From Wenyingzhuangia marina (GTDB lineage Bacteria > Bacteroidota > Bacteroidia > Flavobacteriales > Flavobacteriaceae), in the NCBI RefSeq assembly GCF_900130035.1, contig NZ_FQXQ01000001.1, positions 558,001 through 622,000 of the forward strand: DNA of 64,000 bases. Direction: 5' to 3'. Below are positions 46,489-61,248 of the stretch, one piece after another (position 1 is the stretch's first letter; every line of letters begins with the position of its first letter). The notes below the pieces were generated by a model that was not told where the DNA came from, searched no databases, and saw only the letters and a program-made list of their open reading frames with translations. Made by a program: the position numbers and the translations under genes.

Positions 46489-47322
46489 TTATCTTCTTTT
46501 ATTAGGTCTATTTGCTTTTATGTATTCTTCTAAAGCAATTTCATCAGCTATTTCTATAATATTTCCATCTTTATCTTCAATAGAAATAGGAAATTGAAAA
46601 GTTGGCTTTACACCTTCTTCTAAAGTTTCATGGTAAGCTTTAAAAGCATCATGGTCAGCAATTTCAGTAGTTGTTTCATCTGCGTTAATAACTGTTACAG
46701 GAAATACCAATTTAAATGGAGGTTGTTTAAGCTCTGGTCTGTCATCTTCTCTATTGTTTTTTAAATAAGTCATAAATGCTTCTTCATTTTCAATAGTAAC
46801 AATGGTTCCATCTTTTTCTTGTATAGAAATAGGGAATTGAAAAGTTGGCTTTACACCTTCTTCTAAAGTTTCACGATAAGCTTTAAAAGTATCATGGTTA
46901 GCAATTTCGGTAGTAGTTTCATCTGCATTAATAACTGTTACAGGAAAAATTAATTTAAAAGGAGGATGAAAAGGTTTAGGTCTTTTTAATAAGGCTCTTA
47001 AATTATTAATTCCATCAATTGTGTAGGTTTCTCCATCAATAATAACATCAAAAGGAAATTCAATTTTTGGTCTAGTATTTCGGCTAATTATTTTTCCTAA
47101 TTGCTCATCAGAGTTAATTTCTTCAGTAGAATTATCATCATTAACAGCCGTTACAGGATAATTAACAATAACTGTTTTTAAAGCAGTAGATAATTCTTCT
47201 TTTGATATTTCATCATTACCAGTTAAAGCTGTTTCTTCGTCAATATTTAATGAACTCTGAGAACAACTAACCGATAAAAATGTTGCAAGAATAATTACAA
47301 ATGTTGTTTTAAATAATTTCAT
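46489..47322 (-). CDS. Lipoprotein with three internal repeats
   Basis: 277 aa. Lipoprotein signal with lipobox SVSC (Cys20), then three copies of a roughly 75-residue unit (about 47-113, 118-190, 201-270). The unit reads FPVTVINADETTTEI ... FKAYRETLEEGVKPTFQFPISI ... EEAFMTYLKNNR. The last two are nearly identical in DNA, and the first is diverged. No known family is recognised. It is divergent from an ECF sigma gene (83 bp between starts), so it may be controlled by that system. A surface-exposed or periplasmic binding role is possible. Confidence 0.72.
   Translation of the reverse strand: MKLFKTTFVIILATFLSVSCSQSSLNIDEETALTGNDEISKEELSTALKTVIVNYPVTAVNDDNSTEEINSDEQLGKIISRNTRPKIEFPFDVIIDGETYTIDGINNLRALLKRPKPFHPPFKLIFPVTVINADETTTEIANHDTFKAYRETLEEGVKPTFQFPISIQEKDGTIVTIENEEAFMTYLKNNREDDRPELKQPPFKLVFPVTVINADETTTEIADHDAFKAYHETLEEGVKPTFQFPISIEDKDGNIIEIADEIALEEYIKANRPNKRR
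46560..46975. repeat. Tandem intragenic DNA repeat of about 200-250 bp
   Basis: The block starting AATTGAAAAGTTGGCTTTA at about 46591 recurs at about 46837 with scattered substitutions. Each encodes one of the two C-terminal protein units of the lipoprotein. High DNA identity suggests a recent duplication that could change copy number. Confidence 0.75.
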
Positions 47323-56408: not shown

Positions 56409-56435
56409 AAAAGAAGTAAACACTTGTTTATAAAA

Positions 56436-56470
56436 CCAAAGCGTCTCAAATTTTTGAGACGCTTTTTTTT
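56436..56470 (+). terminator. Terminator after pgk
   Basis: An AAAGCGTCTCAAA/TTGAGACGCTTT stem (56438-56465) and a T-run, 28 bp past the pgk stop. Confidence 0.88.
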
Positions 56471-56501
56471 ATGTAATTTAATAGCCCAAATAAAAATCAA
56501 T

Positions 56502-57542
56502 ATGAAGTATACTAACATCCCCAAAACAGATATTAAAGTTTCTAAAATATGTTTAGGAACCATGACTTTTGGAGAACAAAACACCGAGGCAGAAGCTCAT
56601 GAACAATTAAATTACGCGGTTTCTAAAGGAATAAATTTTATTGATACCGCAGAAATGTATTCGGTTCCTGGTAGAAAAGAAACCCAAGGAAGCACAGAAA
56701 GATTTATAGGTTCTTGGTTAAAAGATCAAAAAAGAGAAGATTTGGTCGTAGCTACTAAAGTAACAGGTCCCAACCCTGGATTGTCATATATAAGAGAACC
56801 TCAGCAGTTTTCTAAAGAAATGATTCACAGTGCCATTGAACAAAACCTTAAGCGTTTACAAACGGATTATGTAGATGTTTATCAATTGCATTGGCCAGAT
56901 AGAAATACCAATTTCTTTGGAAAATTAAATTATAAACATAAATCTGAAAATGAGTGGTTTGATAACATCAATATTGCTGTTTCTGCTTTAGATGATTTGG
57001 TAAAACAAGGAAAAATTCGTCATTACGGATTGTCTAACGAAACGCCTTGGGGAGTGATGAGACATTTACAAGAATCAGATCAACATAATTTAACCAGATG
57101 TAAAACCATTCAAAATCCATATTCTTTGTTAAATAGAACTTATGAAATAGGTTTGGCTGAGGTTGGAATGAGAGAAGAAGTAGGTTTATTGGCTTATTCT
57201 CCATTAGCATTTGGAGTTTTATCAGGAAAGTATTTGGAAGGTGGAAATGCTACAGAAAATGATCGAGTGAATAAATTTCCACAATTTTCTAGATATAACA
57301 GTAAAGAGTCAGCTTTCTTAACGCAACAATATGCAGATTTAGCTAAAGAGTTAGGAATTAGTTTAGTTCATTTGGCTTTGGCATTTATCAATCATCAACC
57401 TTGGGTAACGGCCAATATTATTGGTGCTACCAAAATGGAGCAGTTAAAAGAAAATATCAGTTCTATTGATGTTGAATTATCAGAAGAGGTATTGACTAAA
57501 ATTGATGAAATTCAAAAATTACAGCCAAATCCGGCACCTTAA
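56502..57542 (+). CDS. tas: Tas-like aldo/keto reductase
   Basis: 346 aa from the ATG at 56502 (MKYTNIPKTDIKVSKICLGT). The longer open frame would run through the pgk terminator. Close to E. coli Tas: CLGTMTFGEQNTEAEAHEQL, FIDTAEMYSVPGRKETQGSTE (catalytic Asp/Tyr), the Lys of VVATKVTGP, the His of VYQLHWPDRNTNFFGKL, TIQNPYSLLNRTYEIGLAEV and a C-terminal PAP. NADPH-dependent reductase of unknown natural substrate. The last 273 bp are duplicated, with decay, at 60961-61232, on the far side of a 3.4-kb accessory island. Confidence 0.93.
   Translation: MKYTNIPKTDIKVSKICLGTMTFGEQNTEAEAHEQLNYAVSKGINFIDTAEMYSVPGRKETQGSTERFIGSWLKDQKREDLVVATKVTGPNPGLSYIREPQQFSKEMIHSAIEQNLKRLQTDYVDVYQLHWPDRNTNFFGKLNYKHKSENEWFDNINIAVSALDDLVKQGKIRHYGLSNETPWGVMRHLQESDQHNLTRCKTIQNPYSLLNRTYEIGLAEVGMREEVGLLAYSPLAFGVLSGKYLEGGNATENDRVNKFPQFSRYNSKESAFLTQQYADLAKELGISLVHLALAFINHQPWVTANIIGATKMEQLKENISSIDVELSEEVLTKIDEIQKLQPNPAP
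57270..57542 (+). repeat. Direct repeat L: tas 3' end
   Basis: The final 273 bp of tas, of which 60961-61232 is a diverged second copy in the same orientation. The two bracket the lipoprotein island. Confidence 0.85.
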
Positions 57543-57550
57543 TTTTAAAT

Positions 57551-57586
57551 AAAAAACAGCTGATTTTACTCAGCTGTTTTTTATTT
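57551..57586. terminator. Terminator between tas and the lipoprotein array (inverted-loop form)
   Basis: Stem AACAGCTGA/TCAGCTGTT with loop TTTTAC on the plus strand and T/A runs on both sides. Serves tas and, in the other direction, lipoprotein copy 1. The related hairpins at 58127 and 58703 carry the loop in reverse-complement orientation (GTAAAA). Confidence 0.88.
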
Positions 57587-57591
57587 AATTT

Positions 57592-58110
57592 CTACGGAAT
57601 ATCACTGATAGTACCAGTTACTTTTAACTCATCATCAATGTATAAAATTACTTTACCAAGGAGATTTTTTATCACTTTATGTTTGACTAAATCAATGGAG
57701 ATAAGTTTATCTATTGTTCCACCACTTTCAATTAAATAATTATCACCATTTGCTAAGACTGCTTTAAAATAAGCTTTGTCAGATATAGTTTTAATTTTAT
57801 CAAAATCTGGATTCCATCTGTTTTTTAAATTAATTAATTGAGCAGTTTGACCATCATCATTAGAATTTATGATTTCAGATTTTAATTTAATGGTAGGTAA
57901 ATTAAAGGTATCAACCGCTACAAATATATCTTCTTGGTTGATACCACCAATGATAATTTTAAGGTCTTCTATTTCTTTATCATAATTATTATAAATTTCA
58001 AACCCAATGCCAATTTTAGTGCCATCTTCGTCACCAAAATCCCAACCCCCACAAGCTGTAAGTAAGCTTAGTGAGATAAATACTATTAGGTAATTATATT
58101 GTTTAATCAT
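57592..58110 (-). CDS. Small lipoprotein, array copy 1 (distal)
   Basis: 172 aa. Lipoprotein signal MIKQYNYLIVFISLSLLTAC (Cys20), followed at once by GGWDFGDEDG. The rest is soluble and beta/alpha-like, with conserved blocks IIGGINQEDIFVAVDTFNLP, NRWNPDFDKIKTISDKAYF and the C-terminal TGTISDIP shared by all three copies. This is the most diverged copy, differing mainly at about 45-52, 88-98 and 125-140. It recurs at an exact 576-bp period with copies 2 and 3. No known family is recognised. Immunity protein or partner of the upstream 506-aa lipoprotein is inferred from the arrangement. Confidence 0.82.
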   Translation of the reverse strand: MIKQYNYLIVFISLSLLTACGGWDFGDEDGTKIGIGFEIYNNYDKEIEDLKIIIGGINQEDIFVAVDTFNLPTIKLKSEIINSNDDGQTAQLINLKNRWNPDFDKIKTISDKAYFKAVLANGDNYLIESGGTIDKLISIDLVKHKVIKNLLGKVILYIDDELKVTGTISDIP

Positions 58111-58126
58111 AATTTGAAACAGTTAT

Positions 58127-58158
58127 AAAAACAGCTGAGTAAAATCAGCTGTTTTTTT
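58127..58158. terminator. Terminator between array copies 1 and 2
   Basis: AACAGCTGA/TCAGCTGTT stem with loop GTAAAA and a T7 run on the plus strand and A-run flanks. On the minus strand it follows copy 2. Confidence 0.85.
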
Positions 58159-58167
58159 ATTTAATTT

Positions 58168-58686
58168 CTACGGAATATCACTGATAGTCCCCGTAAATTT
58201 TAAGTCTTTATCAATATATAATACTACTCTACCAAGGAGGTTTTTTACCACTTTATGTTTGACTAAATTGATTGATGAAAGTTCCTCTAGTGCAGAATCT
58301 TCTATCAAATGATTATCACCATTTGCTAAGACTGCTTTAAAATAAGCTTTGTCCGAAATAGTTTTAATTTTATCAAAATCTGGATTCCATCTGTTCTCAA
58401 TGATGTTAATGTATTGTCGATCAACGCCGATATCATTAGAATTAGCAATTTCAGATTTTAACTTTATGGTAGGTAAATTAAAAGTATCAACCGCTATAAA
58501 TATATCTTCTTGGTTAATACCTCCAATCACTATTTTAGTACCTTCTATATCAGCAGGGTAATTGTTAGAGACATCAAAAGAAATCCCAATTCTATCGGCA
58601 TCTTCGTCACCAAAATCCCAACCCCCACAAGCTGTAAGTAAGCTTAGTGTGATAAATACTATTAGGTAATTATATTGTTTAATCAT
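58168..58686 (-). CDS. Small lipoprotein, array copy 2 (middle)
   Basis: 172 aa, lipobox LTAC (Cys20), GGWDFGDEDADRIGISFDV. The middle (about 55-115) is nearly identical to copy 3, including NSNDIGVDRQYINIIENRW, while the region around 118-140 differs from both others. Same length and spacing as its neighbours. Because a terminator separates it from copy 3, it needs read-through or its own promoter in the short spacer. Function unknown. Confidence 0.82.
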   Translation of the reverse strand: MIKQYNYLIVFITLSLLTACGGWDFGDEDADRIGISFDVSNNYPADIEGTKIVIGGINQEDIFIAVDTFNLPTIKLKSEIANSNDIGVDRQYINIIENRWNPDFDKIKTISDKAYFKAVLANGDNHLIEDSALEELSSINLVKHKVVKNLLGRVVLYIDKDLKFTGTISDIP

Positions 58687-58702
58687 AATTTGAAACAGTT
58701 AT

Positions 58703-58734
58703 AAAAACAGCTGAGTAAAATCAGCTGTTTTTTT
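58703..58734. terminator. Terminator between array copies 2 and 3
   Basis: The same hairpin and loop orientation (GTAAAA on plus) as at 58127-58158. On the minus strand it follows copy 3. Confidence 0.85.
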
Positions 58735-58743
58735 ATTTAATTT

Positions 58744-59262
58744 CTACGGAATATCACTGATAGTCCCCGTAAATTTTAAGTCTTTATCAATATAAAGTTT
58801 TACTTTACCAAGACTGTTTTTTATAACTGCATGTTTCACTAAATCTATGGATATAGGATGCTTTAAAGCATAACTTTCAATTAAATAATTATCACCATTT
58901 GCTAAGACTGCTTTAAAATATGCTTTGTCAGATATGGTTTTAATTTTATCAAAATCTGGATTCCATCTGTTCTCAATGATGTTAATGTATTGTCGATCAA
59001 CACCGATATCATTAGAATTAGCAATTTCAGATTTTAACTTTATGATAGGTAAATTAAAAGTATCAACCGCTATAAATATATCTTCTTGGTTAATACCTCC
59101 AATCACTATTTTAGCACCTTCTATCTCGGTAGGATAATTATTAGAAATTTCAAAACCAATTCCAATTTTAGTGCCATCCTCGTCACCAAAATCCCAACCC
59201 CCACAAGCTGTTAGTAAGCATAGTGTGATGAATACTATTAGGTAATTATATTGTTTAATCAT
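58744..59262 (-). CDS. Small lipoprotein, array copy 3 (proximal, coupled to the 506-aa lipoprotein)
   Basis: 172 aa from the ATG at 59262-59260, which overlaps the TGA of the upstream 506-aa gene as ATGA, a translational-coupling junction. Starting at the Met four codons further upstream (59274) would break the exact length match with copies 1 and 2. Lipobox LTAC, GGWDFGDEDG, and the shared core blocks. It differs from copy 2 mostly at about 40-52 and 118-140. Coupling makes it the best candidate for the direct partner of the leading lipoprotein. Confidence 0.85.
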   Translation of the reverse strand: MIKQYNYLIVFITLCLLTACGGWDFGDEDGTKIGIGFEISNNYPTEIEGAKIVIGGINQEDIFIAVDTFNLPIIKLKSEIANSNDIGVDRQYINIIENRWNPDFDKIKTISDKAYFKAVLANGDNYLIESYALKHPISIDLVKHAVIKNSLGKVKLYIDKDLKFTGTISDIP

Positions 59263-60779
59263 AATTGGTAGCATTTTAGAACCATCCTGTTAACACATGG
59301 AGCGTAGGTTGTTTGTGGTATAGTAATTGTTCCACCGCCACTGCCAAGCCAAGGAAGTGTTATTGTTGTATATGTTGTTGTAGAATATGGTAAATCTGCT
59401 GAGGTACAAGCAGAATAATCATATTCACTTGTTATTAAATATTCAGAGCTAGGAGCTATCGGTCCAATAAAATAAACAACTTTAGAGTTATCTATATTTT
59501 CTATTTTAGATTTTATGTAAGGTTCATCTTTATTATTAGCCTCGCTCACTAAGTATCTTTCAGGAAAAAACACTTCATCATATTCTTTAACAATAAAACA
59601 ACTCTGGTTTTCTACACGGTTTTTAGCATCGGCAGCATAAGTGCTTGTTGGTGCTTCTGAAACACCATAAGGTATTCCCAACCAATTTCTTTTTATGCTT
59701 GTATGGTCCCAATAGATACCTCTTCCAATAGTATTGTTGTGTAAGTCCATTGCTTCTGAATCCAAGTCATTGTCCCCACATTCTTCATACGCATCGGCTA
59801 CTCTTTTTGCAAAATCAGTTCTAGTACTTCTTGCAGTACTCATGGTAATATAATATTTAGCTAATAAAACATTCCACATTAAGTGCCTAAAGGCATCTCT
59901 TCGGTCGTTTGCTCCAGGTAAATTTGAATATTCTTGAGCAGCAAGGTCTCTAGCATCTTCACCAGCATCCCTAACACTAAGTGTATTTGCTAGGGTTCCT
60001 GATAGATCTAAAACACATGCCATGTGTGAAGGGCTTCCAGATTCATAACCAAGATTAGTTGTTTTTTGTGTTTTACTAGCTATTTTGGTTGTTAGTTCTT
60101 GTTTTTTTTCCTCAGCTGTTAACAAAATTTCATAGTTCATGTTTTTTTTGTAGTATTCATCAATCAGATCTATGTTTGTTTCTATTTGTTCATCAGACAG
60201 TCCTTCAAAATCGTCTCTAATCATTTCCCATTTTTTCTTTTCTTGTTTAATATGGAATGCTTCAACATTTTTTTCGTGTTCTACAAGTCTTAAAGAATCT
60301 TTTGAAAGGTCAATAAGATTGTTTGCTAATATATATTCTCTTATTTCTATAGACACAGTATCAAGAAATTTTTGTTCCTCACTTTTAATAAACATGGGTT
60401 CTCTTTCAAAGTTATAAGGAAATATATCGGTAACAAGTTTAGTAGCTTCTATAATTAAATCAGTATCAGGTAATTCTAATAAGTCTGTATTACCGCTAGT
60501 TTTAGAAAGTTGAAAATGTGGATTTTTAATTTTACTGTACATTTGTTTTAAACCAGTATCTGTCAATTCAATTTCTAAATCTTCAACAGGAGTTCTAAAC
60601 CTATGTTTTACAGTTAAACCATTAAAATCAATAATTTTAGATGTTTCAGTTTCAATCTTAGCTTCTTTAGTATTTGAATCTAAATTGTTTTCAACATCTT
60701 GACAAGAAGTTAAAAACAAAAACAAACCAGATGCAATTGTTAAAAATTTAACAGGGGGGGTGTAAATGTTTTTTTTCAT
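59259..60779 (-). CDS. 506-aa lipoprotein with DUF6973-like C-terminal domain (putative effector)
   Basis: Lipoprotein signal with lipobox LTSC (Cys26) and a mostly helical, charged region (about 40-245), then a domain (about 250-365) with NDRRDAFRHLMWNVLLAKYY (Asp295, His299), ADAYEECG, and MDLHNNTIGR (His347), the pattern I associate with DUF6973, a family seen in exported and toxin-like proteins. A Ser/Thr-rich tail with several Cys ends CVNRMVLKCYQL. A C7 tract covers codons 7-9. Leads three small lipoprotein genes and is coupled to the first by ATGA. Effector or hydrolase activity is inference. A cell-surface adhesin is an alternative. Confidence 0.75.
   Translation of the reverse strand: MKKNIYTPPVKFLTIASGLFLFLTSCQDVENNLDSNTKEAKIETETSKIIDFNGLTVKHRFRTPVEDLEIELTDTGLKQMYSKIKNPHFQLSKTSGNTDLLELPDTDLIIEATKLVTDIFPYNFEREPMFIKSEEQKFLDTVSIEIREYILANNLIDLSKDSLRLVEHEKNVEAFHIKQEKKKWEMIRDDFEGLSDEQIETNIDLIDEYYKKNMNYEILLTAEEKKQELTTKIASKTQKTTNLGYESGSPSHMACVLDLSGTLANTLSVRDAGEDARDLAAQEYSNLPGANDRRDAFRHLMWNVLLAKYYITMSTARSTRTDFAKRVADAYEECGDNDLDSEAMDLHNNTIGRGIYWDHTSIKRNWLGIPYGVSEAPTSTYAADAKNRVENQSCFIVKEYDEVFFPERYLVSEANNKDEPYIKSKIENIDNSKVVYFIGPIAPSSEYLITSEYDYSACTSADLPYSTTTYTTITLPWLGSGGGTITIPQTTYAPCVNRMVLKCYQL
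60754..60760 (-). repeat. C7 homopolymer tract in codons 7-9
   Basis: Seven consecutive C (G on the plus strand) between AACA and TGTAAATG, inside the signal-peptide coding region of the 506-aa lipoprotein. It is the longest G/C run I found in this AT-rich window. Confidence 0.85.
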
Positions 60780-60960: not shown

Positions 60961-61232
60961 AATAAATTCCCACAATTTTCTAGGAACAATAGTGAGCAGT
61001 TAGTTTTTTAACGCAACAATATGCGAATTTGGCTAAAGAATTAGGATTGAGTTTAACACATTTAGCTCTAGCTTTTGTCAATCATCAACCTTGGGTAACG
61101 GCCAATATTATTGGGATTACTAACATGGAGCAGTTAAAAGAAAATATGAGTTCTATTGATGTTGAATTGCCAGAAGAAGTTTTAAAAAAAATTGATGAAA
61201 TTCAGAAATTACAGCCTAATCCAGCTCCGTAA
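60961..61232 (+). pseudogene. Truncated, frameshifted copy of the tas 3' end
   Basis: Aligns with 57270-57541 from AATAAATT[T/C]CC to the stop. It is 272 bp versus 273 bp: one base is missing, which puts a TAA in frame after about 16 codons. The remaining open part encodes LSLTHLALAFVNHQPW ... QKLQPNPAP, with substitutions such as NIIGITNM for NIIGATKM. There is no start, promoter or N-terminal half, so it is a remnant. It marks the right edge of the island and probably the original tas end next to trpS. Confidence 0.9.
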
Positions 61233-61248
61233 TTAGGAAATATAAAAC

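Follow-up and report, generated by a model that had tools for sequence, protein, structure and literature searches.

We read a four-gene cassette in the genome of Wenyingzhuangia marina, with a probability of about 80%, as a toxin–immunity cassette. It lies at positions 57592–60779, on the minus strand, of the window that we analysed (64,000 nucleotides; positions 558,001–622,000 of contig NZ_FQXQ01000001.1), and consists of a gene for a 506-amino-acid (aa) lipoprotein followed by three tandem genes for 172-aa lipoproteins. The small lipoproteins probably protect the producer from the large protein, and in all likelihood the locus encodes a weapon against other bacteria together with its antidotes. 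A first-pass annotation, correct in its coordinates, strand and lengths, had suggested a toxin and its immunity set from the gene arrangement; this reading gains from the occurrence of the large protein's domain on Rhs-type proteins, from recurrent pairing with small lipoproteins and from stacked modules in a relative, while neutralisation and transfer between cells are steps that we infer.

The C-terminal part of the large protein matches Pfam DUF6973 (residues 266–363, 82.6 bits against a cut-off of 27), as had been suspected earlier, and the structure prediction and sensitive profile search then recommended gave a Wnt-type fold and a match to PDB entry 9uu0, a type VI secretion system (T6SS) effector of Bacteroides fragilis in which the sequence profile recovers this domain (E 4.4e-12). 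Judged by sequence and predicted model, this is a Min-Wnt domain of the Lipocone superfamily with an intact predicted active site. The model has the helical core of Wnt, including the fifth helix; H299 (helix 2), E332 (helix 3) and D345 (helix 4) are invariant in 22 of 22 aligned sequences and in the matching columns of a second alignment (19 of 19). The sNxxGR motif appears as NNTIGR at 348–353, with NNxxG in all 22 sequences and NNxxGR in 15 of 22 (alignment A5) and 13 of 19 (alignment A4). According to PMC12419801, TelC families carry an Asp six residues after the helix-4 Asp; residue 351 is Ile here, so that this Asp is not present. TelC is not among the structure matches listed for the model, which excludes nothing. 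As a single sequence, the large protein finds nothing convincing in the PDB (best E 0.19), and its N-terminus has no Pfam match above cut-off.

The predicted translational coupling is borne out as an ATGA in which the TGA of the large gene (59261–59259) overlaps the ATG of copy 1 (59262–59260); a second in-frame ATG for copy 1 lies 4 codons upstream. The tandem triplication is equally clear, with a 576-bp repeat unit (spacings 576 and 576), coding DNA identities of 89.1, 83.8 and 82.7% for the three pairs, and protein identities to copy 1 of 86% (copy 2) and 82% (copy 3). It is not a chance repeat, because comparison of the 64-kb window with itself (same strand, E 1e-10) gives just one other direct repeat outside the locus and its flank (46563–46725 and 46806–46968, 163 nt, 90% identical). 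The terminators that had been assigned to each small copy are terminator-like hairpins behind the first two copies and, behind copy 3, an inverted repeat that is perfect over 19 nt. A hairpin scan found 3 terminator-like sites in the stretch that it covered, against 1.3 expected from shuffles, the third adjoining a trpS-like gene (gene names without a Pfam result, such as this one and aldo/keto reductase, were assigned by reading), and a scan for sigma-70-type promoters gave no excess (24 matches, 23.3 in shuffles). That all four proteins are lipoproteins rests on a lipobox read by eye in each, LTSC in the large protein and LTAC in all three small ones, rather than on a signal-peptide program. 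The small proteins are predicted to be mostly beta; their family has no match above cut-off in Pfam or NCBIfam, and a PDB sequence search gave nothing convincing (best E 1.6).

Pairing of this kind recurs. In fetched loci with 250 bases downstream, we counted partners of 116 distinct DUF6973 open reading frames (ORFs), one per distinct last 60 residues, the pattern being a 90–210-aa lipoprotein at −60 to +30 bp downstream. The count omits many short DUF6973 matches that had no fetched locus; extra loci were for the most part selected by the length of the frame, apart from three taken because they were short and divergent, and never by partner. Among the 35 long ORFs (at least 260 aa) a partner follows in 20 by the lipoprotein pattern, 21 with other anchors and 23 after reading, two partners that the pattern had missed (L026/L055 and L112) being recovered by eye. 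The corresponding figures are 4 (9 with any anchor) for 81 shorter ORFs and 8 (12 with any anchor; pattern only, no reading by eye) for 262 control genes in the same loci. A survey for large proteins lacking the small ones had been proposed at the outset; among long carriers from genomes of the phylum the partner is present in 20 of 27 by pattern and in 22 of 27 after reading.

The downstream partners fall into several groups. When the profile of the window's small family was compared with three of four other groups, signal peptides alone aligned, and a common origin of the groups is therefore not claimed. Small-family matches occur in 6 of 397 genomes of the family, three of them weak (G248, G160 and G105; E 5e-4 to 1e-3) and excluded from the relatives; no relative came out of scanning genome contigs with the small protein, and the small-family alignment (A3) varied too much to be used in a pattern scan. 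The carriers also differ, as expected of a polymorphic toxin, comprising lipoproteins and Rhs-type proteins. Locus L198 encodes a 2778-aa DUF6973 protein with a Pfam RHS repeat match, L202 and L203 hold partial Rhs-type carriers recognised by reading, and in L112/L121 a DUF6973 tail lies within an array of repeated Rhs-core ends (Pfam YD-shell E 0.0097, below cut-off). Tails vary across the array in L121 (G812:C1:860000-876000), where two read as JAB/MPN-like and one is DUF6973.

L055, at 47% identity the closest relative that the searches gave, has five small genes behind the large gene, two of them short. A second locus in the same genome, L067, has three small genes; the stretches that precede the second and third of them, and the one that follows the third, are leftovers of the 3' end of the toxin gene, and modules composed of a toxin end and an immunity gene were therefore stacked there. 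The third locus, L068, has one small gene beside a large ORF that lacks the N-terminal part. In G176 an apparently broken small gene is an orphan, since the sole DUF6973 match of that genome, a short frame, lies half a megabase from it. Relatives thus hold displaced toxin ends (L067) or an orphan immunity module (G176).

Compared with two of six congeners, the cassette stands as an insertion. In G002 and G005 the aldo/keto reductase gene directly adjoins trpS, while in the window the cassette separates them (Table 1); in the other four congeners the flank that was fetched aligned at trpS only. Neither the large protein nor the small family is matched in the six congeners, one of which is 85% complete. 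The 5' part of the left-edge reductase gene is 93.3% identical to G002, and its last 276 nt are 87.3% identical, followed by a terminator differing from that of G002; the 3' fragment on the trpS side, a feature absent from the first-pass annotation, is also 87.3% identical and has a G002-like terminator. From this sequence pattern, we take the cassette to have entered when an incoming copy of the reductase gene's end recombined here. In G432, a relative from the same family, neighbours of one such cassette are likewise in repeated partial copies. Around the cassette at L067 (5759-11568), flanking genes that read as radical-SAM-like and Sel1-like are present three times, in part or in full.

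Table 1. Features of the cassette and its edges (window coordinates).
Feature	Position	Strand	Remarks
506-aa lipoprotein, predicted effector	59259..60779	-	lipobox Cys26; C-terminal DUF6973 (Min-Wnt/Lipocone) ~250-400; predicted active site His299, Glu332, Asp345
Small lipoprotein copy 1, predicted immunity protein (172 aa)	58744..59262	-	ATGA overlap with effector gene
Small lipoprotein copy 2 (172 aa)	58168..58686	-	86% protein identity to copy 1
Small lipoprotein copy 3 (172 aa)	57592..58110	-	82% protein identity to copy 1
Terminator-like hairpin, interval between copies 1 and 2	58703..58732		
Terminator-like hairpin, interval between copies 2 and 3	58127..58156		
Perfect 19-nt inverted repeat 3' of copy 3	57545..57588		common to convergent aldo/keto reductase gene
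Aldo/keto reductase gene (name by reading)	56424..57542	+	left edge of cassette
Displaced aldo/keto reductase 3' fragment	60961..61234	+	right edge of cassette, continuous with trpS side

The first-pass view of the locus as a candidate undescribed system is narrowed by the fact that lipobox Min-Wnt toxins with lipoprotein immunity were already predicted in 2025 (PMC12419801). The large protein has in common with those toxins, members of the SAW clade of the Lipocone superfamily, the predicted fold, the active-site His, Glu and Asp and the sNxxGR motif, and lipobox carriers with membrane or lipoprotein immunity are described there too. According to the same source, Lipocone toxins have immunity proteins of varied structure, all of which are transmembrane proteins or lipoproteins, a pattern that the lipoprotein partners of several groups seen here repeat. 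BamE-like and jelly-roll folds are among those that it names for immunity proteins. What differs is that immunity is triplicated and belongs to a family without a Pfam or NCBIfam match above cut-off, and that the carrier's N-terminus lacks such a Pfam match. The name DUF6973 does not appear in the main text of PMC12419801 and was unmatched in a text search of 5.39 million papers, although the domain may have been studied under other names; no publication on 9uu0 was found either. Prok-TelC is given in PMC12419801 as the only experimentally characterised polymorphic-toxin domain of the superfamily; TelC/TipC of Streptococcus intermedius, as described there, belongs to the same superfamily and shares extracytoplasmic action and membrane-side immunity with our reading of the cassette, but the extra Asp of the TelC families is replaced by Ile351 in the large protein. 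SitA/SitI of Myxococcus (PMC5562445, PMC8546572) likewise involves a lipoprotein toxin, with a role in kin discrimination and polymorphic tails. The homogeneous polyimmunity loci of PMC3482391 are likewise tandem paralogous immunity genes with short spacers and the same orientation, whereas here the array lies beside its own toxin, has a hairpin after each gene and encodes lipoproteins, Imm65 being the only apparent lipoprotein in the collection as given there. As far as our literature search can tell, the link between the Pfam name DUF6973 and Min-Wnt, this carrier with its partner family, the lipoprotein immunity array and the stacked toxin ends in a relative are new.

Under the toxin–immunity reading, the large lipoprotein would be exported, lipid-anchored and displayed at the envelope, and would reach a neighbouring cell by contact. 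Its Min-Wnt domain would then act in the neighbour's periplasm or at its inner membrane, from the outer face. Lipocone/Min-Wnt enzymes are predicted to act on phosphate-linked lipid head groups (PMC12419801), and for the large protein the predicted reaction is, by analogy, cleavage or exchange of such a head group on a phospholipid or on a carrier lipid such as lipid II. Placed in the producer's envelope by their presumed lipidation, the small lipoproteins would block the toxin; copy 1 would be made together with it through translational coupling, and copies 2 and 3, as diverged duplicates, may back up or broaden protection.

Several observations weigh against this reading or limit it. The T6SS sheath (VipB/TssC) has no match in the 99.97% complete genome, in contrast to 9uu0, T6SS-delivered by its name; that the large protein is a lipoprotein is a further difference from 9uu0. 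The type IX secretion family SprA_N is present in the genome. The lipobox of the large protein is followed by C-QDVEN, only loosely like the surface export signals K-(D/E)2, Q-A-(D/E)2 and SDDFE (PMC5080379), and surface exposure is therefore not claimed as shown. Confidence in the whole model is modest (mean predicted local distance difference test score, pLDDT, 61.7; predicted template modelling score 0.42), with residues 1–123 mostly at pLDDT <50. Toxin-end remnants were looked for in the window array and in L055, and none was found. Five of the 27 long carriers from the phylum (L020, L021, L109, L173 and L197) and seven of eight from Lachnospiraceae or viral contigs (the exception is L140) have no small partner. 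DUF6973 matches occur in 100 of 397 genomes of the family, nearly all in frames <260 aa, and commonly as short exported proteins beside housekeeping-type genes; the domain is therefore not always a toxin. Lastly, the small copies differ by 14–18% in protein, and the nonsynonymous/synonymous rates of the three pairs (0.085/0.252, 0.128/0.445 and 0.151/0.407) show no excess of amino-acid-changing substitutions, so positive selection on the copies is not shown.

A variant of the toxin–immunity reading, possible although we hold it at somewhat less than even odds, is that the array serves mainly as a reserve of defences: copy 1 alone would match the resident toxin, while the other two copies would act against the toxins of relatives, in the manner of homogeneous polyimmunity. 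The amino-acid changes among copies are clustered in patches around an unchanged core (zero in codons 100–120 in all three pairs), and this, the orphan copy in G176 and the loci described in PMC3482391 favour it; the protein difference between copies could, on the other hand, be simple duplication for dosage. It is improbable that the DUF6973 lipoprotein is a self-directed enzyme that remodels its own cell's lipids, with the small lipoproteins as tuning inhibitors or chaperones. Such a role would suit the short DUF6973 proteins, whose neighbours read as coproporphyrinogen oxidase, CysZ-like and acyltransferase genes, and envelope enzymes are known among Lipocone families (PMC12419801), but the absence of matches in the congeners, the insertion of the cassette, the several partner families, three of which, when compared, had no more than a signal peptide in common with the window's family, and the Rhs-type carriers all argue against it. 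Slightly less probable still is a secreted effector directed at prey or a host with the small lipoproteins as accessory surface proteins, as proposed for secreted Min-Wnt proteins without immunity (PMC12419801) and as the long carriers without partners might suggest, since the small anchored proteins are tightly coupled and recurrent and toxin 3'-end remnants are stacked with small genes in L067.

Beyond the toxin–immunity cassette, the W. marina genome has a second DUF6973 gene outside the window (L002, G000:C1:414359-414745), whose product is an exported protein of 235 aa and which is followed at −3 bp by a gene for a membrane protein of 141 aa; two congeners share this arrangement, and it looks like a conserved, non-toxin version. 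The DUF6973 protein of L205 (G172:C4), 218 aa long and glycine-rich over one stretch, has a lipoprotein partner and is perhaps a bacteriocin-like carrier; a nearby gene on the opposite strand reads as a C39-peptidase transporter. The domain alignment gave 29 DUF6973 loci on viral contigs and the long-form alignment none, and a domain search of a phage collection found no match. In L129 and L140, on contigs classed as viral, a small lipoprotein lies directly downstream of the DUF6973 protein. DUF6973 also occurs on 34 plasmid records (Streptomyces 19, Acinetobacter 7, Enterococcus 4, Rhodococcus 2, Paracoccus 1 and Bosea 1). L117 (beta-lactamase-like by reading), L119 and L071 were dropped as not DUF6973.

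More broadly, though we consider it doubtful, Bacteroidota surface lipoproteins with a catalytically live Wnt-fold may be contact weapons that pass, anchor included, between outer membranes with no dedicated secretion machine, their lipoprotein antidote arrays diversifying by stacking of toxin-end/immunity modules. The present analysis connects DUF6973, so far a Pfam domain without an assigned function, with Wnt's bacterial relatives, and provides a compact set of one predicted toxin and three predicted antidotes for testing what a Wnt-fold domain does when its predicted active site is intact. The range of polymorphic toxins would thereby extend to a lipoprotein carrier with a lipoprotein immunity array, and one relative shows a possible route by which such arrays grow.
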